From Cohaesibacter gelatinilyticus (lineage in GTDB: Bacteria; Pseudomonadota; Alphaproteobacteria; Rhizobiales; Cohaesibacteraceae), in contig NZ_OBEL01000002.1 of assembly GCF_900215605.1 (NCBI RefSeq), positions 434,001 through 498,000 on the forward strand: DNA of 64,000 bases, in the 5' to 3' direction. Shown piece after piece: positions 29,062 through 44,498 of the stretch. Each line of letters begins with the position of its first letter. The stretch's first letter is position 1. Below the pieces are notes generated by a model. It ran no database searches and was not told the DNA's origin. It saw nothing but the letters and a program-made list of their open reading frames with translations. The position numbers and the translations under genes were made by a program.

Positions 29062-29414
29062 CTCTTACCGGGGATTTTCTCCCTCACGGCTATTCCTGAT
29101 CTTCGATCAGGGCCTACGGGGGTGCGCACTTTTACGCGAATCCTGATCCGAAAAGTCTGCAACTTTTCGGGGATGCGCACTGCGCTTGCCTATCGGCCGT
29201 CAGAAAAGGAAGGATTTCCTTTTCTGGGTTCTTTTCCCTCGCAGATCTCTCAAGAATAAAAGAATTCGACGAAAACACTCGGTTTTCGTCGGGAGCCGAT
29301 AGGCGACCGCAGCTGACGAGATACGCCATCGAGCCGTGGCGAGATGACAAGCGTATCGACAGAAATGCTGCGCCCTCTCGGAGGCCTGGCCAAAGGCCAG
29401 ATTAGCCGTGAGAG
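29062..29414. repeat. mosaic palindromic element R1
   Basis: Fills the gap between two convergent genes. Order of modules: CTCTTACCGG end; CTCACGGCTATTCC with a CCTGATC/GATCAGG hairpin; CCGAAAAGT/AACTTTTCGG hairpin; AGAAAAGGAA/TTCCTTTTCT hairpin; CGACGAAAAC/GTTTTCGTCG hairpin; invariant core 29320-29357 (GATACGC ... GCGTATC); CTGGCC/GGCCAG hairpin; and TTAGCCGTGAGAG end. Relatives: R2 34231, R3 37866, R5 40910, R4 43994. Confidence 0.85.
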
Positions 29415-29423
29415 ATAAAACTC

Positions 29424-31298
29424 TCACCGCGCAACCACCACCTCGGTGCCCTTACCTGCCACCGACTTCACATCCAGCGTGGCATCCAGCAGCTCTGCGC
29501 GGCGGTGCATGGAGGCTAACCCTAAGCCTTTGCTGGGGGCATTGGTGTCAAAGCCCGTGCCATTGTCTTTGATCATGAAGCGGAACTGGTTGCCATTGCG
29601 GGAGAAGGAGACACGGATATCCGTTGCCCGGCCATGCTTGATGGCGTTTTGCAGGGCTTCCTGATAGATGCGATAAAGATGACCCTCTGATGTCGCATCA
29701 AACCCGCTCTCTTGTTCATCTTCAATCTCGATGCGCACATTGATGCCCGCCCGGGAGCGGATAACATCGGCATGGCTTTGCATGGCCGCAATCAGCCCTT
29801 GCTTTTCGATCATGGCGGGTGAGAGATCGTGGGCAATGCGGCGGGTGTCTGAAATGGCCGCATCCACATGACAGACCACATCGGCCACACCTTGCGCGAC
29901 AGATCCATCCCTGTGCTGGCCTTGCAGCATTTGCAAATTCAGCTTGATGGTGGAGAGCCACTGCCCGACCCCGTCATGAATGTCATAGGCAATGCGGCGG
30001 CGCTCATATTCCTGCGCTTCGATCACCTCGCTTTGGGCCTTGGCCAGCCGTGCCCGTGCCTCGAACAAAGGCTGCATCCCGGCCCAAGCCAGCGAGATGA
30101 GAAAGAGGGGGACGGTGATGTCGCCCGAGCTCGTCCCGGTTTTGGCATAGAACCACTGGTCGCCACCAGCCAAACCCAGAGCTGCCCCAATCCAGATGGC
30201 CGTTGCCCCGATAATGACGGGATAAGCCCGCCGATCCGGCTGCAGAGCGCGACGCACAGCCCACCATGTGATGAGCGTGAAGGTGAGCAACAAAAAGACC
30301 AGCCAGATCAGCGAGTCAAGGCGTCGGATGGGAAAGAGAAAATCAGACCCGACTTCCGGAATGAAGGGCAACAGCAACAGAGCCAGCTGCAGCAAACGCC
30401 CATACCATCTGATCTTGATCTTCAAATGCCGGGCCGAGAATTCCAGCATCGGCACGAGCGATAATGCAGCCAGGTTTGCCGTCAGAAAGGGGAAAATCAC
30501 GGGCGACACTGAAAGGCCCAGAAACAGGGCCAGACTGGAATTGAAGATGAAATGCGGCTGCAACGTAAGGAAAGTCAGCACCAGCCAGCCAAGGCCGTTT
30601 GTCTCACGGCTCACCAGCCAGACAATCAGCGTGACAAGGAAGGCAAGAAAAAAGACGAACAGTGACAAGCTGTTAAAGAGCACGAAAAAGAGCGTCTTGC
30701 CGTGCGATTGGGAAAGGGCTGTGCTCTCTTCCGTGATTTCAACCGGCCCCGCCAGAATGGAAGCATTCAACGCACCGCGCACCGAGCGAATGGCCAGCAC
30801 ATTCTTCCCGTCTTGCTTCAAGAGATTTGGTGGAATGGCAAAAACCCTGGGCATCCCTTTGTCATTACCCGCATCAAGGCCACCAAAGGGTTTTTCCTGC
30901 ATGGCAACGCGGGCAAATTCCACCCCATTGAGATAAAGAATATTGCCCGAAACAAGCACACCGATATGAAGGGCAGGCTTGGCAAGAACGGGCAGAGCTG
31001 CCCCATCAAAATGGATCCGCTGCCAATAGAAGCGCACTTCCAGCCCGCCATCGCGCGCAACACGATCGCCGATGGCAAAGACATCATGATGCTTCCAGTC
31101 ATCATCGGCAAAGTCAGGGTCTGCATAGGCCGGATCGTCCCCTAGCATCAGCTTGACGGGAAGTTGAGTGAGATCGAGTGACCGACCCGACTGCGCCTGC
31201 CCACCCGTGGGCAAGAACAGAAACAACAGACTCAGCAGAAGGGCCAGAGACATTGAGATCTGAGACATTGAGACCTGAGACATGAAAGGAAGCCGCAA
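29424..31298 (-). CDS. membrane sensor histidine kinase (HisKA_3, NarX/DegS-like)
   Basis: About 624 residues. A signal sequence (to GGQAQS) is followed by a periplasmic beta-rich domain (about 35-190), seven or so membrane helices (about 205-390) and a cytoplasmic kinase. The kinase has the H-box YERRRIAYDIHDGVGQWLS with the phosphorylated His, the N-box QEALQNAIKHG and the DNGTGFD/GLGLASM ATP-binding boxes of HATPase_c. This layout is that of 7TM sensor kinases. The TTG start chosen has GGGGAGG five bases upstream; an ATG at 31322 would overlap the response regulator gene. It pairs with the NarL-type regulator just upstream in the same transcript. The signal is unknown. Confidence 0.88.
   Translation of the reverse strand: MRLPFMSQVSMSQISMSLALLLSLLFLFLPTGGQAQSGRSLDLTQLPVKLMLGDDPAYADPDFADDDWKHHDVFAIGDRVARDGGLEVRFYWQRIHFDGAALPVLAKPALHIGVLVSGNILYLNGVEFARVAMQEKPFGGLDAGNDKGMPRVFAIPPNLLKQDGKNVLAIRSVRGALNASILAGPVEITEESTALSQSHGKTLFFVLFNSLSLFVFFLAFLVTLIVWLVSRETNGLGWLVLTFLTLQPHFIFNSSLALFLGLSVSPVIFPFLTANLAALSLVPMLEFSARHLKIKIRWYGRLLQLALLLLPFIPEVGSDFLFPIRRLDSLIWLVFLLLTFTLITWWAVRRALQPDRRAYPVIIGATAIWIGAALGLAGGDQWFYAKTGTSSGDITVPLFLISLAWAGMQPLFEARARLAKAQSEVIEAQEYERRRIAYDIHDGVGQWLSTIKLNLQMLQGQHRDGSVAQGVADVVCHVDAAISDTRRIAHDLSPAMIEKQGLIAAMQSHADVIRSRAGINVRIEIEDEQESGFDATSEGHLYRIYQEALQNAIKHGRATDIRVSFSRNGNQFRFMIKDNGTGFDTNAPSKGLGLASMHRRAELLDATLDVKSVAGKGTEVVVAR
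31246..31284. repeat. 15-bp tandem repeat in the kinase signal sequence
   Basis: GAGACATTGAGATCT, GAGACATTGAGACCT and GAGACATGA follow in tandem. On the coding strand each unit adds MSQ(V/I)S and supplies an in-frame ATG, so copy number can change the N-terminus by five residues without a frameshift. Confidence 0.7.
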
Positions 31299-31311
31299 AC
31301 TCACCTCCCCT

Positions 31312-31941
31312 TCAGGCAGCAATCAGGCGCTGCTTCAGCGCTGCAGCCACGGCCTCGGTCACCCGTTGCACGCCCAACTTGCGGCAGGCATTGGCAAAAT
31401 GAAAGCGCACGGTCCGCTCGGTGATATCCAGCTCCCGCGCAATCATCTTGGCGGTCAGACCACGGGCCGCACCGGACAGGCATTCGCGCTCGCGATCCGT
31501 CAGGGCGCTCTCGCTGGGCAGCACATCAATCAGGGTGCGGCAGAGATATTGATCGCCCCCTTGGATGGTCAGGATCGCTTCCACCAGCTCATCAAAGGCG
31601 GCTTCCTTGACCACATAGCCATCCATGCCATGGGAAAGCAGATCCCGCGCAAAGGAAGGCTCCAGATGCATGGTCAGGGCCAGCGTCTTGATGCCCATAT
31701 CCAGCGCATCCAGTTGCTGCACGATGCCAGCAGGCCCCGGCCCCGGCATGGAAATATCGATGATCGCCACATCGGGTTCATGCGCTTTGGCCAGCTCGAT
31801 CAGATCATCGCCGCTGTTGCAGGTGCCAAGCACGCAAAGCCGCTCGTCAGCCGCCAGCAAACGCGACAGCCCTTCCAGAAAAATCTGATGATCATCGGCC
31901 ATCACCACGCCGATCTCACTCTCCCTCATTTCCCCACTCAT
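31312..31941 (-). CDS. NarL/LuxR-type response regulator
   Basis: 209 residues from MSGEMRESEIGVVMADDHQIFLEGL. The receiver domain has the acidic pair ADD, the phospho-acceptor Asp in VAIIDISMPGPG and a conserved Lys in VVKEAAFDELVEAI. The C-terminal HTH is ALTDRERECLSGAARGLTAKMIARELDITERTVRFHFANACRKLGV. An AAGG site lies five bases before the ATG; upstream in-frame codons are rejected. It is transcribed ahead of the sensor kinase gene and is its likely partner. Confidence 0.92.
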   Translation of the reverse strand: MSGEMRESEIGVVMADDHQIFLEGLSRLLAADERLCVLGTCNSGDDLIELAKAHEPDVAIIDISMPGPGPAGIVQQLDALDMGIKTLALTMHLEPSFARDLLSHGMDGYVVKEAAFDELVEAILTIQGGDQYLCRTLIDVLPSESALTDRERECLSGAARGLTAKMIARELDITERTVRFHFANACRKLGVQRVTEAVAAALKQRLIAA

Positions 31942-32113
31942 GACAGCCTTCAAAAATACCCCCGGAATATGATGCAACCAACTTAGCACACTTATAAGCT
32001 GTTGCACCCTGTCGATTCAGACAGCTATTCCCAAATTGGCGGATTTCCTAGAGTCCCGAGCAAAATCGGGGACACAAAAGCAGCCCCGAACAAGCGTAAA
32101 TGTGGGGTGTAAA

Positions 32114-34228
32114 ATGGGGACCGGGGCAGATCTGACGCGGTTAGGCCGCAACAGCCAAAATATCAAAAACAGAGGCAACACACAAAGCAACAAGTACCGC
32201 ATTCTATATGGTGCGCTTTTGGGGCTGATGGCATCCTTGTCGCCATTATCCGCCCAGCCATTTCAAAGCTGTGATGGTCTGAGCACCACGCTTGTCAGCG
32301 ATGGCTCTCCTTCCGTCGGCACAAATACCTTGAATGTGACGACTGGCGATGTGATCAGCGGAACCATTTCCGGCCTGACCAAAAATTATGATCTGAGTAC
32401 TGTCGCCCTTTTGCGCTTTATCGGATCATCCGTGTCGGATCCACATATCAATGTTTATCAATCCAATCTGACCTATTCCTTCACCGTGAACGCCTATGCG
32501 GAAAACACCCTTGGCCAGGCTCAGGCAAGGCTGTTCATGTATGCCGATGCAGGCATCACGGCGACGGTCAATTGCGTGGGTGCAGGTTCATCTGGCGGCG
32601 GGGGAAGTGGCGGTGGATCTGGCAGCAGTGGAAGTTCCAATACCAACGGCGATACTTTCAGCATCAAACGATCCATCGGTCAGGGGCGCGATTATCTCAT
32701 CACCTGGACCGGCCAGTCGGGCACAGAGAATTGGACACCGATTTATGACGGCCCGGACAGCTGGTGGAATGGCAATACAGGCCGTTTCAACAATCGCAAC
32801 AATCCCAGGCTGCAACTGCAAAATGCCCTTGCCAGATTGCGCGAAGACAAGTCCGAAACGCAAAAACAGCTTGAAGAACTGGAAGCCGAGCTGGAGGAGG
32901 ACGTCAAGAATTTCAAGGAAGAGGATCTGCTCATATGGGGGATCAACGGGCTCTATGACGACTTTGACATTTCCAGTAATGACCTCATCAGGCTGCAAAT
33001 ATGGTATGGTAGCGACGTCCTGATCTGGCATCCCCAAAAGCTTCAGCAGCTCTTGCAACTTCTGAACAAGCTCGCAGACATGAAGAGGCAGGAAGACAAT
33101 ATTCTGGCCGAGCAGTATGCCTTGTTTCGATCCACTGGCAGCAATGCGAACAATGGCCACACCAATAGCATATTCTATGCAGATCCGGCCCTCAACCAGC
33201 CTGCAAGCCATGCGCAAAGCCCCTTCACATCCTTCAATTTCTCGGACAACAGTGCCAACTTTGGCATGACGCTGCGCCAACTGCGTGCCTGGCGCAAAAG
33301 CAAGGCCGCACAACAAAGCCAGCAGATCGGCAGCCGCGTGGCCATGGCCTTTGATGCCACCAGCCAGCCTGCCATTCCGCAAACTGACATCGAAGAGCCC
33401 CTGCCCGGTCTGCTAGGCGACAAGAAATTCAACGCCTGGATCGATGCCGCCGTCAGCTGGTCCCGCGACAACAGAAGTGGCAACGAAGGCACAGGCACCT
33501 CCATTCAGGTGCGTGCTGGCGCCAGCTATCAGCTGCTGGAAAAGATCGGCATCGGCAGCATGCTGCGCTATAGCCACAAGGCGTCTGATCGCAGCGATGG
33601 CAGCGCCTCCACCAAGGGCGATGGCTTTGGTGGCTCGATCTTTGCCCAAATCCAACTCCCTTACGGGGCGATCTTTACCCCGGTTTTTGCCTATGAGCGG
33701 GTGAATTCGGATCTGGATATCTCAAACGGCGCGACCCTTGTCACCGGTGGCTTTGAAAGCGATATCTATACCTATGGCGGCAGTCTGAAAAAGCGCTTCA
33801 TCTTTGAAAGCGACAATATCGACCGCCGTTACTTCATCGATCCGAACCTGACGCTGTCCTACATCAAGGGCAAACGTCACGGCTATGTCAGAAGCGATGG
33901 CTCCTATGTGCCGTCCGATAGTTTCAATCAGGGCGTCCTGTCCTTCGGCCCGACTTTTGGCCTGCAAATGCGCAATGTCAGCGAGACCATCGCCATGCTC
34001 GAACCCAAAGTCGGCATCAATGGCATCTGGAACTTCGAGACCCCGGCCGCCTATACCACAACCACCGGCTCGGTGATCAAACCCACGCAATGGTCCGCCT
34101 CCCTCAATGCAGGCCTGACATTGCAACTGAAGAACGGCCTCACCAGCACAATCACCGGCGCCTATTCAGGCTTGGGCAGCGACGTGAATACAGGAACCTT
34201 CTCAGGGAGATTGAGCTTGCCGTTTTGA
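32114..34228 (+). CDS. outer-membrane autotransporter-domain protein with coiled-coil passenger
   Basis: 704 residues. Signal sequence to about PLSAQPF. A beta-type N-terminal domain (about 50-155) ends in a Gly/Ser linker. A second segment with YLITWTGQSGTENWTP leads to a long coiled coil (LREDKSETQKQLEELEAELEEDVKNF). The C-terminal ~270 residues have the alternating amphipathic strands of an autotransporter beta-barrel, ending in LSLPF with the terminal Phe required for outer-membrane assembly. Probably a surface protein. The start is the ATG after GGGGTGTAAA. Element R2 begins two bases after the stop. Confidence 0.85.
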   Translation: MGTGADLTRLGRNSQNIKNRGNTQSNKYRILYGALLGLMASLSPLSAQPFQSCDGLSTTLVSDGSPSVGTNTLNVTTGDVISGTISGLTKNYDLSTVALLRFIGSSVSDPHINVYQSNLTYSFTVNAYAENTLGQAQARLFMYADAGITATVNCVGAGSSGGGGSGGGSGSSGSSNTNGDTFSIKRSIGQGRDYLITWTGQSGTENWTPIYDGPDSWWNGNTGRFNNRNNPRLQLQNALARLREDKSETQKQLEELEAELEEDVKNFKEEDLLIWGINGLYDDFDISSNDLIRLQIWYGSDVLIWHPQKLQQLLQLLNKLADMKRQEDNILAEQYALFRSTGSNANNGHTNSIFYADPALNQPASHAQSPFTSFNFSDNSANFGMTLRQLRAWRKSKAAQQSQQIGSRVAMAFDATSQPAIPQTDIEEPLPGLLGDKKFNAWIDAAVSWSRDNRSGNEGTGTSIQVRAGASYQLLEKIGIGSMLRYSHKASDRSDGSASTKGDGFGGSIFAQIQLPYGAIFTPVFAYERVNSDLDISNGATLVTGGFESDIYTYGGSLKKRFIFESDNIDRRYFIDPNLTLSYIKGKRHGYVRSDGSYVPSDSFNQGVLSFGPTFGLQMRNVSETIAMLEPKVGINGIWNFETPAAYTTTTGSVIKPTQWSASLNAGLTLQLKNGLTSTITGAYSGLGSDVNTGTFSGRLSLPF

Positions 34229-34230
34229 AC

Positions 34231-34492
34231 CTCTTACCGGGGATTTTCTCCCTCACGGCTATTCCATGATTGATACCTCTCACGGCTATTTCTTGGCTAT
34301 CGCCGAATTCTTTTTCCTTGATAGATCTGCGAGGGAAAAGAACCCGCAAAAGGAAATCCTTCCTTTTGCGACGGCCGATAGGCAAGCGCACGACAAGATA
34401 CGCCATCGAGCCGTGGCGAGATGAAAAGCGTATCGACAGGAATGTGCGTGCCCTCGCAGGCCGCCGCGCAAGCGGCGAATAGCCGGTAAGAG
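34231..34492. repeat. mosaic palindromic element R2
   Basis: Bounded by exact inverted ends CTCTTACCGG and CCGGTAAGAG. It contains the invariant core (34397-34434), a GCAAAAGGAA/TTCCTTTTGC hairpin module in the opposite orientation to that in R1, and a GCCGC/GCGGC-tipped module at the right end. It fills the space between two convergent genes. Confidence 0.85.
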
Positions 34493-34502
34493 ATATGGAG
34501 CC

Positions 34503-34787
34503 TCACGACAAAATGGCCAGGATCCCTGCTCCCAATTGCACGAAGATAAGCCCCCATGCAGCCCCATGGGCAATGTCTTTTCTGCCTTTCCAGATTGCAC
34601 CCCACAAAACCACAAGACAGATCAGACTGGCCACCGGCCCGAGATAGAGCAGGCCCAGCAAAAGATAGGACATGACAGGGACGACTTGCCCGCCCATGAC
34701 AAGAGGGGCGAAGACCACCACGAAAATCCAATAGGGCGTTGCCAAGACCAGGGCAAGATGCGCAACAATGATCAGAGGCTTTGACAT
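34503..34787 (-). CDS. small integral membrane protein
   Basis: 94 residues from MSKPLIIVAHLALVLATPYW, with an AGGAAG ribosome site. Three hydrophobic segments cover most of the protein. No conserved family motif is recognised. A longer frame to 34856 has no support. It converges on the autotransporter gene across element R2. Confidence 0.6.
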   Translation of the reverse strand: MSKPLIIVAHLALVLATPYWIFVVVFAPLVMGGQVVPVMSYLLLGLLYLGPVASLICLVVLWGAIWKGRKDIAHGAAWGLIFVQLGAGILAILS

Positions 34788-34970
34788 TCTTCTTCCTGAC
34801 GCGTGTGGTGGATTTGATCCGCTCTCCTTGATACCCTTCAGACACATAAAAAACAAATCATATGGTCTGCGCTGTCAAATCCGGAACATCGATTCAGAAA
34901 TGAGATAACGTTGGAAGGGGCAAGGTTTTCTGCTCACAGGAAAAAGCACCCTGACAGTCAAGATTTGGCC

Positions 34971-35321
34971 ATGATCTCCCATCAGTCTGCCCCGAACAAT
35001 CCTGATATATCTTCTCACCCGACAAGCTGGGCCCATATGATGATCCGCCTGACCCGCAATGGTCTGATCAAATCCATCCTCCTTATTTTGATCCTCGCTC
35101 TTTCAGTCGTCGCCACATATCTGCATACCCGCGAAAAATGGACCGAACTCGGCAGAATGACGGGAGAGACAAATGGCAAGGCGCAGGCCTTGAGCATGCT
35201 ATGCCAGTTGGCGACATCAGGCCCCATCCATGAGGAGCCTGACGGACTGCTGACGGTCAAGGCCAGTGCGGTGAGCCTGAAACGGACCGGCACGCTGATC
35301 GAGATCCGCTGCGAGGAATAG
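34971..35321 (+). CDS. small membrane-anchored protein
   Basis: 116 residues from the ATG giving MISHQSAPNN; an internal start at 35037 (MMIRLTRNG) is equally possible because neither has a clear ribosome site. One hydrophobic segment (LIKSILLILILALSVVATYL) is followed by a soluble domain of about 55 residues, probably periplasmic. It precedes a palindrome-bounded element and the SecDF-head gene in the same direction. Family unknown. Confidence 0.55.
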   Translation: MISHQSAPNNPDISSHPTSWAHMMIRLTRNGLIKSILLILILALSVVATYLHTREKWTELGRMTGETNGKAQALSMLCQLATSGPIHEEPDGLLTVKASAVSLKRTGTLIEIRCEE

Positions 35322-35353
35322 ACGCAGTGGGCATCATGACCATGATCACCATT

Positions 35354-35623
35354 TTATACCAACGAGGGGAAAGAATGACCCATATGACCGAACTTTTCAG
35401 GTTTTGTGACAAGGAGCGGGTGCCGTCTTGGTCTGACTGACCACGAGGCTGCGGCGACGCAGTCCACGAAGCTTGAAAATCCGGCCTTTGGTGTTTTTCG
35501 ATTGCTCGCTGAACGTCGTTATCTTTCTTCCGAAAATGCCCCGGCATTGTCCGTCGAAAGCTGCCTTGTCAGCAAACAATCGAAAAGCATCCTATGGGTT
35601 ATTGTTCCCCCTCGTTGGTATTA
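35354..35623. mobile_element. MITE-like element with 30-bp terminal inverted repeats
   Basis: The left end (TTATACCAACGAGGGG then AAAGAATGACCCATA) and the reverse complement of the right end (TAATACCAACGAGGGG then GAACAATAACCCATA) match at about 26 of 31 positions. A second inverted pair lies further inside: TTTTTCGATTG with GCTG near 35497 and CAATCGAAAAG near 35579. No transposase is encoded. The total length is about 270 bp, in keeping with a non-autonomous miniature element. Confidence 0.65.
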
Positions 35624-35661
35624 GGACATGATATAAAGCACACGCGAAACAGAAAAAAGAG

Positions 35662-36120
35662 ATGGCAGTGAGAAAACTGATAACAGGCATCATGGCGCTT
35701 GGCGTTGCAGGTGCACTGGTCTGGACAGGCACCAAAATCCAATCGAACCTGTATGAAGACCAATGTCTGGATCTGGGTGGAGGACGCAATCCCGGGAATT
35801 TCCCCATATGCGTTGTGGTTCAAAATGATCCCTACCTGTTGATCGGCCCGATAGCAATCACCGCCAATGATATTGTATCGATCAAGCCAGGAGCGCTGTC
35901 ATCCGGCAACCGGATCGTTCATATTGAACTGAAAAAAGAAATCGCAGCTGCCTTGTCAGGCTTCACACGACACTCAGTCGGGCAGCCCATGGCCATGAAG
36001 ATAGATGGGAAAACAGTCAGCTCCCCCGTCATTCGCGAAGCAATAGAGTCCACCAAATATGACATTGCCCTCTCTGAGGAGACAGCCAAAGATCTGATCG
36101 CGCATTTATCACCAGATTAG
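35662..36120 (+). CDS. SecDF P1-head-like domain protein
   Basis: 152 residues with an N-terminal hydrophobic anchor or signal (KLITGIMALGVAGALVWTGT). The C-terminal part FTRHSVGQPMAMKIDGKTVSSPVIREAIES...IALSEETAKDLIAHL follows the pattern of the P1 head subdomain of SecD (G-x-x-x-A-x-x-x-D-G-x-x-x-x-A/S-P-V-I). Here the domain is free-standing and probably periplasmic. Single-domain SecDF-head proteins are known, but their function is not established. Confidence 0.7.
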   Translation: MAVRKLITGIMALGVAGALVWTGTKIQSNLYEDQCLDLGGGRNPGNFPICVVVQNDPYLLIGPIAITANDIVSIKPGALSSGNRIVHIELKKEIAAALSGFTRHSVGQPMAMKIDGKTVSSPVIREAIESTKYDIALSEETAKDLIAHLSPD

Positions 36121-36184
36121 GCCGTATACTCATAAATGAGCTGTATTTATGAATTGAGCCACATTTTTAATACTCAGAAAGAGA

Positions 36185-36961
36185 ATGATGTTTAACTGGA
36201 TCAAGTCCCTGTTCAACACTCCCACACCTGCAAACACCCATAAACCGGACCCAACTCCAGACCTGCAGCCAACCACACCCCCGCGCGATCCCGAAGATCC
36301 GGCCTACCAGAAAACCCATGACGCCATACAAGCCTATTGGGAGAAGATCGGCACGGTCGATAGTGACGTGATCAGCTATCTCATCAACCCCGCTTTCATG
36401 GGCTCTCCTCCCTGGCCGGGCGGACGACAGGCCTTCAAGATCATTCGCACATCAAACAGCCTGATCATTGCATCCGATGGACTGTCCGATCCGTTCGATG
36501 AAGACGCAGACAGCCAGTGCAATGGCTTTGAAATGGAGATATATATCGAGGTCGAGGCACAGCAGGACATGACATTTGATGACATCAAGAACTCTGCAGC
36601 TTTTTCTCTGATCGAACAATGCGCAAGACAAATTGCGGAATGGGGTGGCATCACCACACTTCTTGACCAGATAAAAATCGTCTCATCCGAAATTCCGGTT
36701 CCCGACGGCGCCATTCCAGAAACCTTCCTCAATCAGGATGAATATGTCGGCGTGCTCTTTGGCATGGAGGCCGAGAACCGCCCGACATTCGTGCCTGACA
36801 CACCCCTTTCGCCCGTTCGCATGGTCGCGGTCACCGCCTTGTCACCAGCCGAGGTACAGGATATTGCCATGGGCAAACTCCCCCGCGAGCAAATGGCTCA
36901 AATGCTCATGGATGCCGGACATGGCCCGATCTCCGATTTCCACCGAGACAGCCTTGTCTGA
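36185..36961 (+). CDS. cytoplasmic protein, possibly suppressor-of-fused-like
   Basis: 258 residues. The proline/threonine-rich N-terminus (residues 10-45) looks disordered. The globular part contains FKIIRTSNSLIIASDGLSDPFDED...GFEMEIYIEVEAQQD, recalling the SUFU-type beta fold (strand, T-x-G-L-S-D-P, then an acidic strand). This is a tentative match from pattern. SUFU-like and DUF1963 domains both occur as immunity or partner proteins in bacterial conflict loci; the next gene is DUF1963. No toxin is evident here. Confidence 0.6.
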   Translation: MMFNWIKSLFNTPTPANTHKPDPTPDLQPTTPPRDPEDPAYQKTHDAIQAYWEKIGTVDSDVISYLINPAFMGSPPWPGGRQAFKIIRTSNSLIIASDGLSDPFDEDADSQCNGFEMEIYIEVEAQQDMTFDDIKNSAAFSLIEQCARQIAEWGGITTLLDQIKIVSSEIPVPDGAIPETFLNQDEYVGVLFGMEAENRPTFVPDTPLSPVRMVAVTALSPAEVQDIAMGKLPREQMAQMLMDAGHGPISDFHRDSLV

Positions 36962-36979
36962 AAAGCGTGAGAGCATTTG

Positions 36980-37786
36980 ATGATCAGAACATGGTTGAAA
37001 TCACTCATCGGCAGCAAAGCCCCACAACAACAGACGACGAGCACCCCATATGCCGAACCGACGGAACAGGAGTTGCAGGAAGCGCGTGATCGTCTGGATG
37101 AATTGGCCAAACTCGCCATTTTCGGGGACATTGGCGGCATGCGTCCACAAAAGGACAATCGGGCTACAAGCTGGTGGGGTGGCAATTTTCTGGGTGCAAA
37201 GGGCGAAGAAGTCCCTATCTGCTCACAATCCGGACGCCCCATGCATCCTGTCCTTCAAATCCGCGTGGATGAGCTTCCTGAAAGACCGCCGGAATTCGAA
37301 GGCCTTGCCCTGATCACCATCTGGATGGATTTGCAATCCCAATCTTTGGAAGATGGCACAAACGGCAACACCTTTGCTGTGCGCAGCTATGATGATCTTG
37401 CACCCCTCGTTCCCCTGGGATTTGGCTATCGGGAAAGCCCGGAACTGCCGACATTTCCCGTCCGCTGGCGCGACGCCGCCCTTGAACAACCTGGCTGGGA
37501 AGACATGGCGGACGAAGTGCCGACAAATGTCGCCTGCGCTTCAGATGATGACTGGTTCTTCAATAGCCACTATGCGTCAGATCACTATTATGAGCTACGC
37601 TCCCGATATCCCATAAAGCTTGGTGGCTGGCCCGCATGGATACAGGGCTCCAACTGGCCCCGCGACGGACAATATTTCTTGCAGATCGATGCAACAGACA
37701 AGGGCAAATTATATCTGGGCGACGCCGGATCCTGCTACATCTTCAAAACACCCCAAAGCTGGGAAATCAAAAAAGACTGCTATTGA
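36980..37786 (+). CDS. DUF1963 (YwqG-like) protein
   Basis: 268 residues. The C-terminal blocks YPIKLGGWPAWIQGSNWPRDGQYFLQIDATDKG and LYLGDAGSCYIFKT are the DUF1963 signature (K-L-G-G-x-P-x-x-x-Q, f-l-x-Q-I, G-x-x-Y). A start codon 18 bases after the upstream stop suggests an operon with it. DUF1963 proteins are soluble and widespread, of unknown biochemical role. Both N-termini (WIKSLFNTP and WLKSLIGSK) are alike, so the two genes may share a short targeting or interaction segment. Confidence 0.8.
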   Translation: MIRTWLKSLIGSKAPQQQTTSTPYAEPTEQELQEARDRLDELAKLAIFGDIGGMRPQKDNRATSWWGGNFLGAKGEEVPICSQSGRPMHPVLQIRVDELPERPPEFEGLALITIWMDLQSQSLEDGTNGNTFAVRSYDDLAPLVPLGFGYRESPELPTFPVRWRDAALEQPGWEDMADEVPTNVACASDDDWFFNSHYASDHYYELRSRYPIKLGGWPAWIQGSNWPRDGQYFLQIDATDKGKLYLGDAGSCYIFKTPQSWEIKKDCY

Positions 37787-37865
37787 TATACAGGTGCACA
37801 AGCGCCGGACATCACAGAAGAGAATATCAAACGGTAAAATCCATTTGTTTCCTTTTGCGAGAATT

Positions 37866-38312
37866 TACTCCCTCACGGCTATTCCTGATCTGCGATCAGG
37901 GCCTACGGGGGTGCGCACTTTTACGCGAATCCTGATCCGAAAAATCTGCAACTTTTCGGGGATGCGCTTCGCGCTTGCCTATCGGCCGTCGCAAAAAGAA
38001 GGACTTCCTTTTGCGGGTCCTTTTCCCAAAGCAATCTCTCAAGGATAAAAGAATTCGGCGGAAGCATCGCACTTCCATCGGGAGCTGATAAGCGACCGCA
38101 GCTTACAAGATACGCCATCGAGCCGAGGCGAGATGATAAGCGTATCGACAGAAATGTGCGTGCCCTCGCAGGCCGCCGCGCAAGCGGCGAATAGCCGGGA
38201 AGAGGTACAATTCGGTGAAAGCACAGCGCTTTCACCGGGAGCTGATAGGCGACCGAACCGTATGGTTCGCCCCGTCTGGAGCCCTGATCAAAGATCAGGA
38301 ATAGCGTGAAGA
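37866..38312. repeat. mosaic palindromic element R3
   Basis: Starts CCTCACGGCTATTCC with a CCTGATC/GATCAGG hairpin and ends with the inverse, CCTGATC/GATCAGG then GGAATAGCGTGAAG. It contains the CGAAAA-core hairpin, a GCAAAAAGAA/TTCCTTTTGC hairpin, the invariant core (38109-38146), a GCCGC/GCGGC hairpin and a GGTGAAAGC/GCTTTCACC hairpin. It lies between the convergent DUF1963 and chemoreceptor genes. Confidence 0.85.
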
Positions 38313-38321
38313 CAAAACTTC

Positions 38322-40250
38322 CTATGCAGCTCTGATACCCGCTAACAACCGTTCCAGCTCTGCGGACAGAACTTCTGACTCTTTGGACAGATTTTGAGAC
38401 GCTTCCAGAACATCGCGGGACGCTTGTGTCGACTGATTGGCCGCATTGGTCACATCTGCAATAGACAGCGAAACTTCCGACGTGCCATCGGACGCCTGCT
38501 GCACATTATGCGAGATTTCCTGTGTGGCCGCAGATTGCTGATCCGTCGCCTGCGAGACCGAACCGGAGATTTCGCTCATCGAGCGGATCGTCTCGGCAAT
38601 GTCATTGATGGCTTGAGTGGATTCCGTTGTCGAGCTTTGGATCGAATGCACCTGATCGGTAATTTCGATGGTCGCTTTCTCGGTCTGGTCGGCCAGCACC
38701 TTCACCTCCGAGGCCACAACCGCAAAGCCCTTGCCCGCTTCACCTGCCCTTGCCGCCTCAATGGTGGCATTCAATGCCAGCAGATTGGTCTGGGAAGCGA
38801 TACCATTGATCAGCTCGACAATATCGCCAATACGCTGCACAGCGTTGGACAGACCGGTAATTTTCGCCGCCGCTGCATCTGCATCCATGACCGCTTTTTC
38901 CGAGATCTGATTGGAATGATCGATCTGGCTGGAAATTTCATTCACGGACGCTGCCAGTTCTTCGGTCGCCGCCGCAACTGTTTGCACATTGGAAGACGCC
39001 TGAGAGGCGGCATTGGCCACCGATCCCGACTGCTCACTGGTTTGGGATGCATTGAGCAGCATCACATCGGCAGATTGCTCCAGCTGCGACGCCGCAGTCG
39101 CGACCGAGCGAATGATCCCGCCAACAGAATTCTCGAATTCATCAGCCATATTGTTCAGCATGTCGCGTTGCTCGGCAGCGGCGCGTTCTTCGTCCTGACG
39201 GCGCTCCTGACGAAGGCTTTCCACCTGTTCCAGTTTTTCACGGAAAATCATGATAACGCGGATGATCTCACCAATTTCATCCTTCTTGTGATTGTCCTCG
39301 ATATGGATGTCATAATTGCCATTTGAAAGTTCACCCAACACATCGATGGATTTGGCAAGTGGCTTCATCTGCCAGCGCAACCAGGAGGTAAAACCAACAA
39401 GAAACAGAATGATGACCGCAGCAAGCGAAGCCACAATATAAAGCACCTGCTCTTGCTCGGCATTATGGGTTTGGGTGATATCGGACAGGCTATAGGCAAC
39501 GGAAATGGTTTCCCCATCCATGCCTTTGACCGGAGAGGCAAGGGCATCATAGACCCTGCCACCGATATACAATTTGTCATTATTGGCAATAGCCGCCCGA
39601 ATGTCGGCCAGCTGAACCGTACCAAAGAAATCCTTGTTCGTATTATGGATCACCTGGCCATCAGTACTGGCAACCAGAATCTCGGACTGATCGGTTGATT
39701 TCATCAAACCGGCGATGACAGCAAAGTCCTGCGAGAAACCCACACTGCCAATCAGACGGCGCTCCTGATAGATCGGAAAAGCCAGAACAACGGACAAATT
39801 GGCGCTTTTATCCTTGGCGACGGAATAGACGATTTCCTGCTTTTGCAAGCTGGACTTGACCACATCATCAAAGCTGCTTTCATCCCCCTTCACCATCTTG
39901 GAAAAGAGCACGGACCCGGCGGCATTGGCAACAACCAGACCGTTGATTGTCTTGTTGGCTTTCAGGCGGTTGTAATTGGTCTTGTAATTCTCTTTCACCG
40001 CACCGGTATCATTTTTGGCCAGTGCCATTCGGCCTTCGAGATTGCGGGTGATATTGAGAATATTGGAATACATCAGCTGGCGCTGGCTCATGATGACATA
40101 ATTCATCAAACCAGTCTGCTTTTCGGTTTTTGCAGCCAGCGTCTGTTTTTGCGTAACCCCGCGCAGCTGTTGCTCACCAACGATGAAACCGGCGGAAAGA
40201 ATAAGGATAGCGCAAACCGCGCCGCATACAATTCTGGTTCTCAAAAGCAT
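38322..40250 (-). CDS. methyl-accepting chemotaxis protein with periplasmic Cache-like domain
   Basis: 642 residues. An N-terminal membrane helix (about 8-25) is followed by a periplasmic sensor (about 30-270) with a Cache-like pattern ([52 protein letters not shown]). A second helix ([19 protein letters not shown]), a HAMP domain and a signalling domain follow. The tip is [41 protein letters not shown]. No pentapeptide tether is seen at the C-terminus. The ligand is unknown. The rhodanese gene lies just upstream in the same direction. Confidence 0.93.
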
Positions 40251-40289
40251 GGGAGATCCCTTTTTGAAATCTGCAAGGCAGCGGAATGT

Positions 40290-40715
40290 CTACTCGATGG
40301 GAAAGTTGGCGGTCTGCCAGGATGGAAAACCATCGCGGAAATAATAAACCTTGGAATAGCCCCACTTGATGGCCTTGCTTGTCGCCTTGCTGGCACGCAG
40401 ACAGGACCAGCCATTGCAATAGATCACCACAGGCTCATCCTTGCTCACCCGGGCTTCCATGCTCTCTTCATTCAGCTTTTTCTTCAGCTCGATATGAATG
40501 GCACTCGGTACCCGCCCGGCCTCGAAATCGGCATTGGAGCGCACATCAAGAAACTTGACGCCTTGCTCAAACAGCGACTTGGCCTTGGTTGCATCCACCG
40601 TCGTCGCGCCAGAAATTGTCTCAGGGGATAGTTCAGCCGAAGCAGGTAAAACCATGAAAAGTCCGGCCACCAGAAAGAAAAAAAGTCTCGCGTAAATTTG
40701 TAATTTTGCCATCAA
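40290..40715 (-). CDS. periplasmic rhodanese-domain protein
   Basis: 141 residues. Signal peptide to about PASAELSP. A single rhodanese domain follows: ARSLFEQGVKFLDVRSNADFEAGRVPSAIHI (substrate loop) and EPVVIYCNGWSCLRASKATSKAIKWGYSKVYYFRDGFPSW, where the Cys of YCNGWSC is the expected sulfur-carrying residue. Sulfur transfer or a redox role in the periplasm is likely. It is 40 bp upstream of the chemoreceptor gene in the same direction and possibly co-transcribed. Confidence 0.88.
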   Translation of the reverse strand: MMAKLQIYARLFFFLVAGLFMVLPASAELSPETISGATTVDATKAKSLFEQGVKFLDVRSNADFEAGRVPSAIHIELKKKLNEESMEARVSKDEPVVIYCNGWSCLRASKATSKAIKWGYSKVYYFRDGFPSWQTANFPIE

Positions 40716-40909
40716 TCATCCTCCACCCAATATCTAAAATTATGAACATAAGAATTTAAAAACCATTAATAGTAATTTGAAAATAACATTAGAGAATTCA
40801 TACTTGCGAAATATCAAATTATACAGTCAAATAGCAAAGTAAACCCCACCTCCAACCAAGAATAGATCATTTTCAACGCGGATTTATTTGAAATAATTGG
40901 GTTTTATTC
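40716..40909. other. AT-rich leader upstream of the rhodanese gene
   Basis: About 190 bp of AT-rich sequence without a gene. It presumably holds the promoter of the leftward rhodanese-chemoreceptor pair. No clear operator is recognised. Confidence 0.4.
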
Positions 40910-41184
40910 CTCTTACCGGCTATTCACCGCTTGCGCGGCGGCCTGCGAGGGCACGCTTCGCGCTTGCCTATCGGCCGTCGCAAAAAGAAGGACTTCCTTT
41001 TGCGGGTCCTTTTCCCTCACGAATCTCTCAAGGATAAAAGAATTCGGCGGAAGCATCGCACTTCCATCGGGAGCTGATAAGCGACCGCAGCTTACAAGAT
41101 ACGCCATCGAGCCGAGGCGAGATGACAAGCGTATCGACAGGAATGTGCGTGCCCTCGCAGACCCGAGCAATCGCCGGTAGGAGG
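40910..41184. repeat. mosaic palindromic element R5
   Basis: Begins CTCTTACCGGCTATTC with a GCCGC-type tip; this left end is the reverse complement of the right end of R2 apart from one base. Internal parts (GCAAAAAGAA/TTCCTTTTGC hairpin, GGCGGAAG/CTTCC hairpin, core 41098-41135) are almost identical to R3. The right end reads GCCGGTAGGAGG. It is the only copy located between divergent genes. Confidence 0.85.
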
Positions 41185-41304
41185 AATAGAGACACCTATG
41201 TCTAAATTGCATTTTTGATCAACACAACCAATTGTGGTAATATTAATATTCTCTTAACCATCCATATATTTTCAATTTTTCAAAAATTACAAAGGCATAT
41301 TGGC

Positions 41305-43233
41305 ATGAACAAGAAAAATGGAACCGGAAAGGAAACCACCACCAATCAATTGAAAAATGCCCCTAGATTGGGCGACCGCGTGCTCAATGTCTGGAACGAC
41401 GCCACTGATCTGCGCGACCGCATGTATGAGCCCGCCCTGATGGAGCTTGCCCTGATCATGGATCCGCCAGATCAATCCATCAGCCCAATCCTCGATCAGG
41501 GCAACGAAGGCTCCTGCACCGGTTTTTCACTGGCAAGCGCCATCACACTCATGAACCGCAAGCGTTATGACCGTCTGAGCCCACCGGTAAAAGCACCACA
41601 AGCCAGCCCGCGCATGCTGTATGAAATGGCCAAGATCAATGATGAATGGCCCGGCGAGGATTATGAAGGATCCAGCATTCGAGCGGCGCTGAAAGGCTTT
41701 TATCAAAATGGCGTCTGCACCGAAGGCTTGGCTCCCTATATTGCAGGCGAGCAGAATTGGTATCTCAACAAGGATCAGGCACAGAATGCCCGCAATGTCG
41801 GCCTTGGGGCCTATTATCGCCTCAACCCCGAAATTCGTGACTATCACGCCGCACTGAATGAAACCGGCGTCATTTATGTGTCTGCCAATGTGCATCGCGG
41901 CTGGAACAAACCCATCAAAGGTGAAATCAAACCCTCGCATCTGTCTGAGGGTGGCCACGCCTTCATCATTGTCGGCTATGATGAGGAAGGCTTCCTGATC
42001 CAGAACTCATGGGGCGAGAACTGGGGCAAATTCAGGGGCATGCCAGGCATCGCCCGCTGGCGTTACGATGACTGGGTCACCAATGTCATGGATGCATGGG
42101 TTTTGCGCCTTGCTGTGCCAACGCCTGAAGCCTTTGATCTGACCACGGCCCAGACCGAAACCACCGGCACGGGATTTCTCGACACAAAGACGATCCGCGC
42201 CCCACGGCGCGAAGAGATTATCGGCCATATCATCCATCTGGATAATGGTCAGTTGGTCACAACAGGCAAATATCCCACTCCCATGACCACCATTCAGGAA
42301 ACAGCCGATTTTCTGGCCGATGAAACCGCCACTGCCAAACGCGATTACAAACATTTGCTGCTCTATGCCCATGGCGGCCTGAATGATGCTGCATCCTCTG
42401 CCAACCGGGTGCGCAAGATGAAGGAAGTCTTCAAGCGCAACGGCATCTATCCCATCCATTTCATGTGGGAGACCGGCTTCTGGGGATCGCTTGGCGATGT
42501 CATCTTCTCGGCCAACAAAAGGGCAGAAGGCCGCGTCACCGGTCTGTCCGATATCTGGGATCGCTTTTTGGAAAAAGTCACACGGCCAACCGGTCGCGCT
42601 GTCTGGAACGAAATGAAACGCGACGCCTCTCGCGCCTTTGACACCAATGGTGGCGGACGGCAGGCGCTGAAAGCGTTGCTGAAGGGCAATGCCAGTCGCT
42701 CGAAACCACTGAATGTGCATTTTGTCGGCCACAGTGCCGGATCCATTCTGCTGGCTCATATGCTACAAGCCATGAATGGAATCAATCCGCTGAAGGCTCC
42801 TTTCCAGTCCTGTTCGCTGATGGCCCCAGCCTGCACGATTGATCTGTTTGACAGCCATATCAAACCCAAGATCGGCCAGAACGGGATGGCAAGCGGCCTG
42901 AAAACTTTGACGCAATATAACCTGATCGATCAGCGCGAAGAAGATGACAGCGTCGGTCCTTACAGAAAATCCCTGCTCTATCTTGTCTCCAATGCCTTTG
43001 AAGACAACAAGAAAATGCCACTTCTGGGCATGGAAAATTTCGCCGAAAATCTGCCCCTGAAACAAGACCATGTCATCCATTATGCGGGTCGCGGTGCCAC
43101 GATCACCGACAGCAAAAGCCATGGTGGTTTTGACAATGACCGCGCCACCATGAACCACATCCTCAAAACCATCCTTGGCAAAAAACCCACCACCGCCAAT
43201 GGTTTCCAGCCGGAAGACATGATCGGCTATTGA
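41305..43233 (+). CDS. papain-like (C1) peptidase fused to an alpha/beta hydrolase
   Basis: 642 residues from MNKKNGTGK, without a signal peptide. The N-terminal half is a C1A-type cysteine peptidase: DQGNEGSCTGFSLASAITLM with the nucleophile Cys71, GGHAFIIVGYDEEGFLIQNSWGENWG with His218 and Asn234. The second half (about 340-640) is an alpha/beta hydrolase: HLLLYAHGGLNDAASSANRVRKM, then VHFVGHSAGSILLAHML with Ser477 in GHSAG, and a late His region (VIHYAGRGATITDSKSHGGFDND). Both active sites look intact, so this is a two-enzyme protein. It stands alone with a hairpin after its stop. Substrates are unknown. Confidence 0.85.
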   Translation: MNKKNGTGKETTTNQLKNAPRLGDRVLNVWNDATDLRDRMYEPALMELALIMDPPDQSISPILDQGNEGSCTGFSLASAITLMNRKRYDRLSPPVKAPQASPRMLYEMAKINDEWPGEDYEGSSIRAALKGFYQNGVCTEGLAPYIAGEQNWYLNKDQAQNARNVGLGAYYRLNPEIRDYHAALNETGVIYVSANVHRGWNKPIKGEIKPSHLSEGGHAFIIVGYDEEGFLIQNSWGENWGKFRGMPGIARWRYDDWVTNVMDAWVLRLAVPTPEAFDLTTAQTETTGTGFLDTKTIRAPRREEIIGHIIHLDNGQLVTTGKYPTPMTTIQETADFLADETATAKRDYKHLLLYAHGGLNDAASSANRVRKMKEVFKRNGIYPIHFMWETGFWGSLGDVIFSANKRAEGRVTGLSDIWDRFLEKVTRPTGRAVWNEMKRDASRAFDTNGGGRQALKALLKGNASRSKPLNVHFVGHSAGSILLAHMLQAMNGINPLKAPFQSCSLMAPACTIDLFDSHIKPKIGQNGMASGLKTLTQYNLIDQREEDDSVGPYRKSLLYLVSNAFEDNKKMPLLGMENFAENLPLKQDHVIHYAGRGATITDSKSHGGFDNDRATMNHILKTILGKKPTTANGFQPEDMIGY

Positions 43234-43238
43234 GGCAC

Positions 43239-43269
43239 CCCCTGCTGCATGCCAACCATGCAGCAGGGG
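43239..43269 (+). terminator. strong hairpin after the peptidase-hydrolase gene
   Basis: CCCCTGCTGCATG and CATGCAGCAGGGG form a perfect 13-pair stem with a five-base loop, six bases after the stop. It is followed by CAAAAAATC rather than T residues, so it may stabilise or punctuate the transcript rather than terminate it by the classical route. Confidence 0.55.
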
Positions 43270-43287
43270 CAAAAAATCATCCTCGCA

Positions 43288-43317
43288 GAATATGCAGAAT
43301 TAATGAGCCCTGAGCCT
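43288..43317. repeat. 30-bp dispersed repeat, copy 2
   Basis: Matches 16891-16920 at 26 of 30 positions. Located in the 260-bp gap before the ATP-binding protein gene. Confidence 0.4.
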
Positions 43318-43496
43318 GGGGTCCTGCAAGATTATTGAAGTCAGGCCGTTTTCGTGTCACTAATCGCCCATGAAATGCTTGCATCAGACACAGCGTGGCC
43401 TTTGCCACATGCGAATTACCATCCCGGCCTGACTGGCGGGCCGGGTCCTCAATATCTGACTGTCTGAAACGCATTTTATCAAACATGAGAGTTTTC

Positions 43497-43988
43497 ATGT
43501 CTCCCACATCCCCGACTTTGCATCTGCTGTGCGGCAAGATCGCCTCTGGAAAATCCACACTGGCTGCGCTCCTTGGCTCCCAACCCGGAACAATCACCAT
43601 AGCCGAAGACGAATGGTTGGCCATTCTCTATGCCGATGAGATGACATCGATATCAGACTATGTGCGCAATGCATCCAGACTGCAATCCATCATCGGACCC
43701 CATGTTGCATCTCTGCTCAATGCCGGACTGTCGGTGGTGCTGGATTTCCACGCCAATACCACCGAACGGCGCAGCTGGATGCGCGATCTGATCCAGACCA
43801 CAGGAGCTGCACACCAGCTGCATTATCTTGATGTTCCGGACGAGGTTTGCAAAACCAGATTACGATCACGCAATGCCGATGGTGCCCACCCCTTCGCCCC
43901 GACCGAAGAGCAATTCGATCAGCTATCCAGACATTTTGTTCCCCCACATCCGGGTGAAGGCTTCACCATCATCCGGCACGGCCACTGA
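43497..43988 (+). CDS. P-loop kinase-like ATP-binding protein (AAA_33/zeta-toxin-like)
   Basis: 163 residues from MSPTSPTLHLLCGKIASGKSTLAALL, with GAGAG upstream of the ATG; an ATG at 43485 is an alternative. The P-loop GKIASGKST is clear. SVVLDFHANTTERRSWMRDLIQ and LHYLDVPDEVCKTRLRSRN are the Walker-B-like and Arg-lid segments of the AAA_33 group, which phosphorylates small molecules or nucleic acid ends. No antitoxin is adjacent. It is probably a housekeeping or resistance kinase of unknown substrate. Confidence 0.82.
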   Translation: MSPTSPTLHLLCGKIASGKSTLAALLGSQPGTITIAEDEWLAILYADEMTSISDYVRNASRLQSIIGPHVASLLNAGLSVVLDFHANTTERRSWMRDLIQTTGAAHQLHYLDVPDEVCKTRLRSRNADGAHPFAPTEEQFDQLSRHFVPPHPGEGFTIIRHGH

Positions 43989-43993
43989 GACAT

Positions 43994-44485
43994 CTTCACG
44001 CTATTCCGTAACTTGTTTCCCTCACGGCAAATCCTCGCTCACGCTCGGGCCTACGGGGGTGCGGGCTATGCAGCCCGGTCACCTATCGGCTCCCGGCGGA
44101 AACCTGTGTTTCCGCCGAATTCTTTTATCCTTGAGAGATTGGCCTGGGAAAAGGATCCGCACAAGATACGCCATCGAGCCGAGGCGAGATGATAAGCGTA
44201 TCGACAGGAATGTGCGCGCCTCGCAGGCCGCCGCACAAGCGGCGAATAGCCGAGACAGGAAATAAACCCACGAGGGACAAGAACCCAGAAAAGCGATAGC
44301 GCTTTTCTGACGGCCGATAGGCAAGCGCGAAGCGTGCCCTCGCAGGCCCGAGCGAAGCGAGGAATAGCCGGTAAGAGGTACAGTTCGGTGACAGCATCGC
44401 GCTTTCACCGGGAACCGATAGGTGACCGAACCGCATGGTTCGCCCCGTCTGGAGCCCTGATCGCCAGATCAGGAATAGCGTGAAG
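43994..44485. repeat. mosaic palindromic element R4
   Basis: Bounded by perfect 14-bp inverted ends CTTCACGCTATTCC (43994-44007) and GGAATAGCGTGAAG (44472-44485). Inside lie a GGGCT/AGCCC hairpin, a CGGCGGAAAC/GTTTCCGCCG hairpin, the invariant core (44165-44202), a GCCGC/GCGGC-type tip, an AGAAAAGC/GCTTTTCT hairpin and an AGCCGGTAAGAGG end that is internal here. It is the longest copy and reads as two elements joined. It fills the gap between convergent genes. Confidence 0.85.
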
Positions 44486-44498
44486 ACAAATAACTCCT

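Follow-up and report, generated by a model that had tools for sequence, protein, structure and literature searches.

A family of structured, pseudoknotted intergenic repeat units in Cohaesibacter gelatinilyticus and other Alphaproteobacteria

Elements R1-R5 and their repeat unit

The window considered here is a 64-kb stretch (C2:434001-498000) of the Cohaesibacter gelatinilyticus genome, which is available as 15 contigs with the total length of 5,198,252 bp. It carries five intergenic elements, R1-R5, which a sequence-only reading had described as non-coding mosaic palindromes with an invariant 38-bp core, GATACGC...GCGTATC. Direct reading of the sequence bore out the five elements, each in its place and with no evident coding capacity. 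We found that they are assembled from a repeat unit of ~100 nt. A covariance model of this unit (CM R1, built from 59 units of the genus) yielded 12 matches in the window (E<=1), every one within R1-R5 and none elsewhere: four in R5, three in R3, two each in R4 and R1, and one in R2. R5 is the most composite element, and R3 is the second.

In the copies read, the unit consists, from 5' to 3', of hairpin hp1, GGGAACCGATAGGTGACC (alpha units) or GACGGCCGATAGGCAAGC (beta units), hairpin hp2, GCGCCCTCGCAGGCC, hairpin hp3, and GGAATAGCCGTGAGAG. Its structural parts are the variable hp1, a small hairpin with a GATA loop, the variable hp2, and hp3 with pairing 5' and 3' flanks.

R1 (29062..29416), located between two convergent genes, is an inverted pair of units. 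Its beta unit (29079..29230, minus strand, 85.9 bits; all bit scores are for CM R1) is of the GGCCGATAGGC type and houses another palindrome in the second hairpin. This palindrome, CCGAAAAGT..ACTTTTCGG (29128..29178), corresponds to positions 67-117 of the R1 query, which have separate matches in the genome. The alpha unit of R1 (29263..29416, plus strand, 92.3 bits) carries the 38-bp GATACGC hairpin (29320..29357, plus strand) in its second hairpin. R2 (34231..34492) comprises a degenerate left arm and one intact beta unit (34341..34494, plus strand, 84.1 bits) with the GATACGC hairpin at 34397-34434. R3 (37868..38315), also between convergent genes, is formed by a minus-strand beta unit with a lodged CCGAAAA palindrome (37868..38019, 77.1 bits), a plus-strand alpha unit (38052..38206, 75.9 bits) with the GATACGC hairpin at 38109-38146, and a second plus-strand alpha unit with the GTCT/AGAC end type (38209..38315, 96.5 bits). 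R4 contains a beta unit on the minus strand (40908..41008, 83.9 bits) and an alpha unit on the plus strand (41041..41184, 44.9 bits) with the GATACGC hairpin at 41098-41135. R5 (43993..44487) is a composite of four unit matches bounded by a 15-bp terminal inverted repeat, TCTTCACGCTATTCC, which is perfect when the ends are set one base apart. These matches are an alpha unit (44017..44121, minus strand, 95.7 bits), a truncated unit that begins with the GATACGC hairpin at 44165-44202 (44165..44260, plus strand, 33.5 bits), a beta unit (44282..44379, plus strand, 83.8 bits), and a second alpha unit of the GTCT/AGAC end type (44382..44489, plus strand, 90.8 bits).

The elements do have end modules in common, as the sequence-only reading had noticed. 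It was also right that the GCAAAAGG-type hairpin is inverted in R2 relative to R1: the carrier unit lies on the minus strand in R1 and on the plus strand in R2. On the other hand, the perfect 14-bp terminal inverted repeats ascribed to R4 reduce to 3 perfect base pairs (CTCTTACCGG vs. CTCCTACCGG), while those of R2 are perfect over 10 bp, and the left end of R5, taken for the reverse complement of the right end of R2, matches instead, in reverse complement, the right end of R3 and that of R5 itself. Much of what had looked like shuffling of modules is accounted for by the opposite orientation of units and by the presence of other repeats inside a hairpin.

The GATACGC core does stand on the plus strand in all five elements, but it is not an invariant core of the family. 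Genome-wide, the 38-bp core occurs at eight places (up to 3 mismatches), compared with none for a reversed-pattern control. When R1 was used as a blastn query, at least 87 matching pieces were found in the genome (40 of 118 candidates scored), mostly beyond the core part; therefore, the core does not define the family. Allowing for nine substitutions, we found 13 GATACGC copies, with at most seven substitutions, in 12 loci of the genome chosen for this search; ten of them were inside a unit match and three in a tandem run beside a unit. The strand of the copy coincided with the strand of the host unit in all ten cases, one host, in R5, being truncated. A stem-based search of 31 loci of the same genome and the window produced few additional copies, compared with 65 unit matches in those loci. 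As copies also stand outside units, and as a diverged copy in another locus (L267) has compensating changes in the stem, GATAGAC/GTCTATC, the GATACGC hairpin is a repeat in its own right that sits in hp2, a passenger rather than the core of the family. The palindrome CCGAAAAGT..ACTTTTCGG, present in the second hairpin of the R1 and R3 beta units, is dispersed in the genome too.

Each unit folds on its own and contains a pseudoknot

We collected 73 units from loci of the genus by a regular expression and aligned 59 of them (alignment A1), leaving out 14 with an over-long stretch between hp2 and hp3. For the named structure of 29 pairs, the fraction of paired cells was 93.3%, compared with 71.1% in shuffled alignments, the number of doubly changed cells was 379 vs. 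126.5, and the covariation score was 0.570, with 0.205 after shuffling and no more than 0.099 after sliding. Of the five measures, the weakest was the number of pairs showing a double change (24 vs. 21.1, with 17 of 500 shuffles equally high). Another alignment, A5, was comprised of 71 units, all from outside the genus, and its structure has 31 pairs in seven helices in a unit of ~100 nt. There, the covariation score was 0.672 vs. 0.148 shuffled and at most 0.092 slid; the fraction of paired cells was 92.7% vs. 59.2% shuffled, a percentage biased towards the structure, as A5 had been aligned by a model of that same structure. The hairpin sequences diverge widely between copies, with the pairing retained. 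These compensatory changes, both within the genus and in the 71 units outside it, show that each unit folds on its own into hp1, the GATA-loop hairpin, hp2, and the flank-paired hp3. Whole elements also fold as long branched hairpins, and we considered such a giant hairpin as the functional fold. However, the compensatory changes are kept inside single units, and we therefore favour folding unit by unit.

Pairing also joins the variable triplet 5' of hp3 to a triplet near the 3' end of the unit. In A5, these are columns 139-141 and 231-233, which are paired in 97.7% of cases, with double changes at all three pairs. The motif preceding hp3 is G[CGT]AG, whose second base covaries with a base 5' of it. 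The tips of hp3 sometimes have tandem G.A pairs instead of Watson-Crick pairs. Among mismatches on the written strand, G.A outnumbers C.T (53 vs. 3 in a further alignment, A3, and 49 vs. 12 in A1), and in A3, G.T outnumbers A.C (40 vs. 19). On balance, this points to the written strand as the structured one.

A structure-blind scan of all well-filled column pairs revealed one pair outside the model that ranks third in both A3 and A5. In A3 (columns 146-153) it is GC in 26 units, CG in 13, AT in 10, and AC in 2; in A5 (columns 136-144) it is CG in 26, GC in 25, AU in 13, and UA in 1, with four other combinations and two gaps. The covariance models had been built without this pair. It encloses the 5' strand alone of the flank-pairing stem of hp3, and therefore crosses that stem. 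Its neighbour, C-G in 65 of 66 lettered rows of A5, is uninformative by itself. Together, they form a two-pair stem (N1-C with G-N2) crossing the flank pairing, that is, a pseudoknot, which we read as a compact H-type pseudoknot around hp3. Nearly invariant bases of the unit are C226, G227, Y228, G229, A230, and A145.

Distribution, arrangement and gene setting

The C. gelatinilyticus genome contains at least 64 units (CM R1; 150 of 1007 candidates scored). Hence the suggestion that the elements are larger and more modular than ordinary repetitive extragenic palindromic sequences (REPs) has held: they belong to a genome-wide non-coding family, are not remnants of a single duplicated gene, and have many further copies. 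Since the model searches scored between 10 and 150 candidates for each genome, all counts are lower bounds. Of the 18 genomes of the genus, five match, including that of C. gelatinilyticus and one weak case (150 candidates scored per genome). The congeners have 25, 18, and 2 matches, one weak match (E 0.007; G001), and 0 in the 13 others. At the level of the order, matches were found in 46 of 297 genomes, again with C. gelatinilyticus included (E<=1e-4; 13 candidates scored per genome). In the class, 10 of 385 genomes, C. gelatinilyticus among them, match CM R2, a model to which sequences of other genera were added (E<=1e-5; 10 candidates scored per genome); the nine others are placed no more closely than in the same class.

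Neither in the window nor in 20 loci from other genera does any Rfam family cover a unit at the gathering threshold; the only match in the latter loci is a tRNA next to a unit. When known RNA families were sought less stringently in the R1-R5 stretch and six loci, there were weak matches only, all outside units. One 76-nt piece had no blastn match in plasmids and phages, and two longer pieces had none in plasmids. We also considered carriage by phages, but nine stretches of viral contigs selected by a pattern scan contained no units by CM R2. By eye, one of them (L300) is unrelated, and the others read (all but L304) share a different repeated sequence. In 200 kb of the S. meliloti plasmid pSymB, which was not verified to hold RIME copies, the best match to CM R2 had E 0.41. 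Literature searches for RAYT/REP, RIME, and palindromes of Cohaesibacter or Rhizobiales did not find the family in print, subscription literature being mostly outside their scope. The family is real and has no name in the literature searched, and its fold is, as far as we know, new among such repeats.

In C. gelatinilyticus, 65 unit matches occupy 31 loci, and 61 of these matches were grouped into 32 clusters. The -+ pair, with the 3' ends outward, was found in 19 of these clusters; there was no separate +- doublet, and the only -+-+ cluster is formed by two elements ~200 bp apart. Outside the genus, 71 matches form 54 clusters, mostly single units; eight of these clusters contain -+ and none +-. 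The palindromic look of the elements is due to the inverted -+ pairs of units. In the list of 73 units, such pairs, if both members had been caught, mostly combine alpha with beta, and direct tandem runs (L072, L079, L080) are comprised of alpha units.

Gene settings were derived from mechanically defined open reading frames (ORFs). The clusters of C. gelatinilyticus are convergent in 14 cases, tandem in 16, and divergent in 2 (n=32), and those elsewhere are convergent in 26, tandem in 16, divergent in 3, and unscored in 9 (n=54), while neighbouring ORF pairs in the window are convergent in 14, tandem in 38, and divergent in 13 (n=65). Thus, divergent placement is rare (2/32 and 3/45 scored clusters, respectively). 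By the window ORF list, the ORFs flanking R1, R3, and R5 converge, and those flanking R4 diverge. The setting of R2 is convergent if a 117-aa ORF (34503-34856), which has no Pfam match, is a gene; the mechanical count scored it as tandem. Outside the genus, 14 tandem-gene cases had their units on a single strand; six of these were sense and eight antisense. Overall, units favour the 3' ends of genes, without a strand preference.

Some features of the neighbourhood may be mentioned separately. The gene following R4 (41215-43230) encodes a papain-family cysteine protease domain (PF00112). The window also contains a second, unrelated non-coding repeat of ~270 bp (35356-35621) with inverted ends ATACCAACGAGGGG/CCCCCTCGTTGGTAT, which looks like a miniature inverted-repeat transposable element (MITE). 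It has at least eight further copies or parts in the genome (82-98% identity) and relatives in congeners G009 and G005 (~72-83% identity). Stretch L249 (G000:C2:499000-509000) contains a locus with RtcR, Ro60 (TROVE/vWA), YrlA, and RtcB, which begins about 2 kb past the window end and where four elements with eight unit matches are found within ~5 kb. One unit there begins five bases past the YrlA match (69.9 bits, threshold 69), and an 86-aa ORF resembling a cargo gene (L249:2826-3086) stands between a truncated alpha half and a beta half of one element.

Proposed mobility and rival explanations

We lean towards the reading of R1-R5 as composites of a ~100-nt structured unit belonging to a non-autonomous mobile family similar to REPs and bacterial interspersed mosaic elements (BIMEs). 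The features of REPs, BIMEs, and RAYTs used for comparison are those given in PMC2817692, PMC3733652, and PMC6006769. Similar to REPs, BIMEs, and REPINs, the units are dispersed, intergenic, often located at gene 3' ends, and arranged in inverted doublets and tandem runs, and they would share with them a folded single strand and perhaps a tag 5' of the hairpin foot. Unlike REPs, described as hairpins of 21-65 nt and as species-specific (PMC6006769), the units are ~100 nt long, with several helices and a pseudoknot, and the family is conserved over families and orders, with no Y1 transposase detected in 22 of 28 carriers. The REP copy number usually exceeds 100 per genome, compared with at least 64 units here (150 of 1007 candidates scored). 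IS200/IS605 elements have a guide tetranucleotide on the 5' side of their terminal hairpin, and this guide interacts with the four nucleotides at the very end (PMC6006769). The right end of the unit resembles this arrangement, as the sequence 5' of the terminal hairpin pairs and covaries with bases near the 3' end; by analogy, though not by membership, the variable triplet 5' of hp3 and the 3'-end triplet may be akin to the guide and the terminus. The differences are that the element here has no transposase gene, more helices, and the extra crossing pair N1-N2. RIME and the A, B, and C palindromes of Sinorhizobium, from the same order, are also intergenic repeats with conserved secondary structure (PMC2573895; for RIME, also PMC2873474); RIME may differ, given that the best CM R2 match in the 200 kb of pSymB had E 0.41. 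CGTC-tagged REPs, which have no known enzyme, are palindromic and located mainly downstream of genes as well, but are small, 20-40 bp (PMC3733652).

If mobile, the unit would move in the form of a folded single strand on which an enzyme recognising the hp3 module acts in trans. Insertion would be tolerated mainly near stop codons, and the mosaic structure could arise when older copies receive new insertions, half-elements are lost, and copies exchange sequence. A bolder version, which we regard as tentative, is that pseudoknotted mobile elements form one family throughout the class Alphaproteobacteria; as in IS200/IS605, a variable guide beside a terminal hairpin would coevolve with the last bases of the element itself, but the elements would be moved by a non-Y1 enzyme acting on single strands or via RNA.

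The sequence-only reading had suggested a RAYT as the mobilising enzyme. The Pfam family Y1_Tnp, which includes RAYTs, was found in 6 of 28 carriers and in 9 of 23 genomes taken as unit-free (including G001 with its weak match, E 0.007), so there is no link between a Y1 transposase and the units. It was not detected in the other 22 carriers, some of which are 97-100% complete. C. gelatinilyticus itself has five Y1_Tnp matches, and the three ORFs read are 140, 140, and 149 aa, an IS200-like length. Flanking ORFs, nearly all from other genera, featured no recurrent family, the commonest one matching three (104 of 171 listed ORFs scanned, 25 of 158 families shown). A RAYT is therefore unlikely, unless it has been lost from most carriers. 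We consider such a loss, with the units being ordinary REPs or BIMEs, as improbable. The inverted doublets, tandem runs, and intergenic 3' positions agree with it, and the G[CGT]AG motif at the hp3 foot is reminiscent of the GTAG tag; moreover, Y1 frames of RAYT-like length (~190-225 aa) are present in G030, G093, G171, and G278, and therefore a RAYT may act in some of the carriers. On the other hand, the distribution of Y1_Tnp among carriers and unit-free genomes and the length of the Y1 ORFs in C. gelatinilyticus speak against it, as do the several helices with a pseudoknot in place of one hairpin and the linkers conserved across orders.

Evidence on mobility comes from comparisons between genomes. 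Unit counts vary from 64 to 0 between members of the genus. At one site in another genus, G127 has two units and G093 has one, while G184, G206, and G227 lack them; the last four genomes are those aligned out of seven congeners of G127, the others being G246, G157, and G052, whose spacer is 1.6 kb long. By eye, the three genomes without a unit have a hairpin-plus-T-run terminator at this site, and the G093 unit lies between the stop codon and a separate terminator of the same kind. The species are diverged, so the ends and possible duplications are unreadable. The same holds for a second aligned site (G184, G227, G157). A 17.5-kb query spanning R1-R5 had no long aligned stretch in other genomes among the matches listed, and hence no empty site.

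Several observations weigh against a mobile family. No target-site duplication was seen by eye in the elements read, no excision or insertion was observed, and no mobilising gene was found by the Y1_Tnp search or among flanking ORFs; four carriers have Y1 frames of RAYT-like length. The linkers are conserved across families and orders, unlike REPs, which are described as species-specific (PMC6006769). A unit pair at L022 is present at the same locus in G017 and, together with a third unit, in G009, and in 14 other congeners only the flanks match (G005 was not scorable). This pair is old and has been kept, and, being common to three genomes, it means that an element is not always young. The L022/L040 element is 91% identical between C. 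gelatinilyticus and G017, compared with 78% for the whole 3-kb locus, and this higher similarity would also fit a selected function. In addition, the structural evidence fits RNA and single-stranded DNA alike, the excess of G.T over A.C mismatches in A1 is small (51 vs. 42), in part because one end type is shifted by a column there, and the counts and absences are bounded by the 10-150 candidates scored per genome.

According to the closest competitor, the unit is a structured RNA that serves the cell, either as a transcript binding a protein or ligand or as a ribozyme; duplication would have spread it, and mobility would be secondary. The pseudoknot and the near-invariant unpaired bases (A after GN2; C-G-Y-G-A) over the class, the site kept in three species, and the four elements (eight unit matches) in the RtcR-Ro60-YrlA-RtcB locus would all suit such an RNA. 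Still, we find it doubtful given the range of matches from 64 to 0 between congeners, the lack of preference for the sense strand (six vs. eight antisense), the units in inverted, tandem, and broken forms, and the absence of an Rfam family at the gathering threshold over the unit. A MITE of a DDE transposase, with CTCTCACGGCTATTCC as an ordinary terminal inverted repeat, would explain the inverted pairs with inverted ends (perfect over 15 bp in R5 and over 10 bp in R2) and the lack of evident coding capacity. It is very unlikely, as single and direct-tandem units bear just one such end, no target duplication was seen by eye in the elements read, and the end sequence covaries with the site 5' of hp3 in the same unit, which a transposase acting on duplex ends does not need. 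Equally little probability remains for bidirectional terminators or stabilisers of mRNA ends selected between convergent genes. Convergent settings are indeed frequent (14/32 clusters in C. gelatinilyticus and 26/45 scored elsewhere, vs. 14/65 ORF pairs in the window), but tandem settings account for 16/32 and 16/45 clusters, the G093 unit lies between the stop codon and a separate terminator, and three congeners of G093 have a terminator without a unit (by eye).

The family, similar to REPs and BIMEs in behaviour, can now be modelled and searched for with CM R1 and CM R2. Its repeat unit has a fold that is supported, pseudoknot included, by compensatory changes across orders, and we know of no REP for which this is the case. 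The question of what moves REP-like elements without a RAYT thereby becomes testable. Finally, structured intergenic sequences of this kind in Alphaproteobacteria could be mistaken for small RNAs or terminators.

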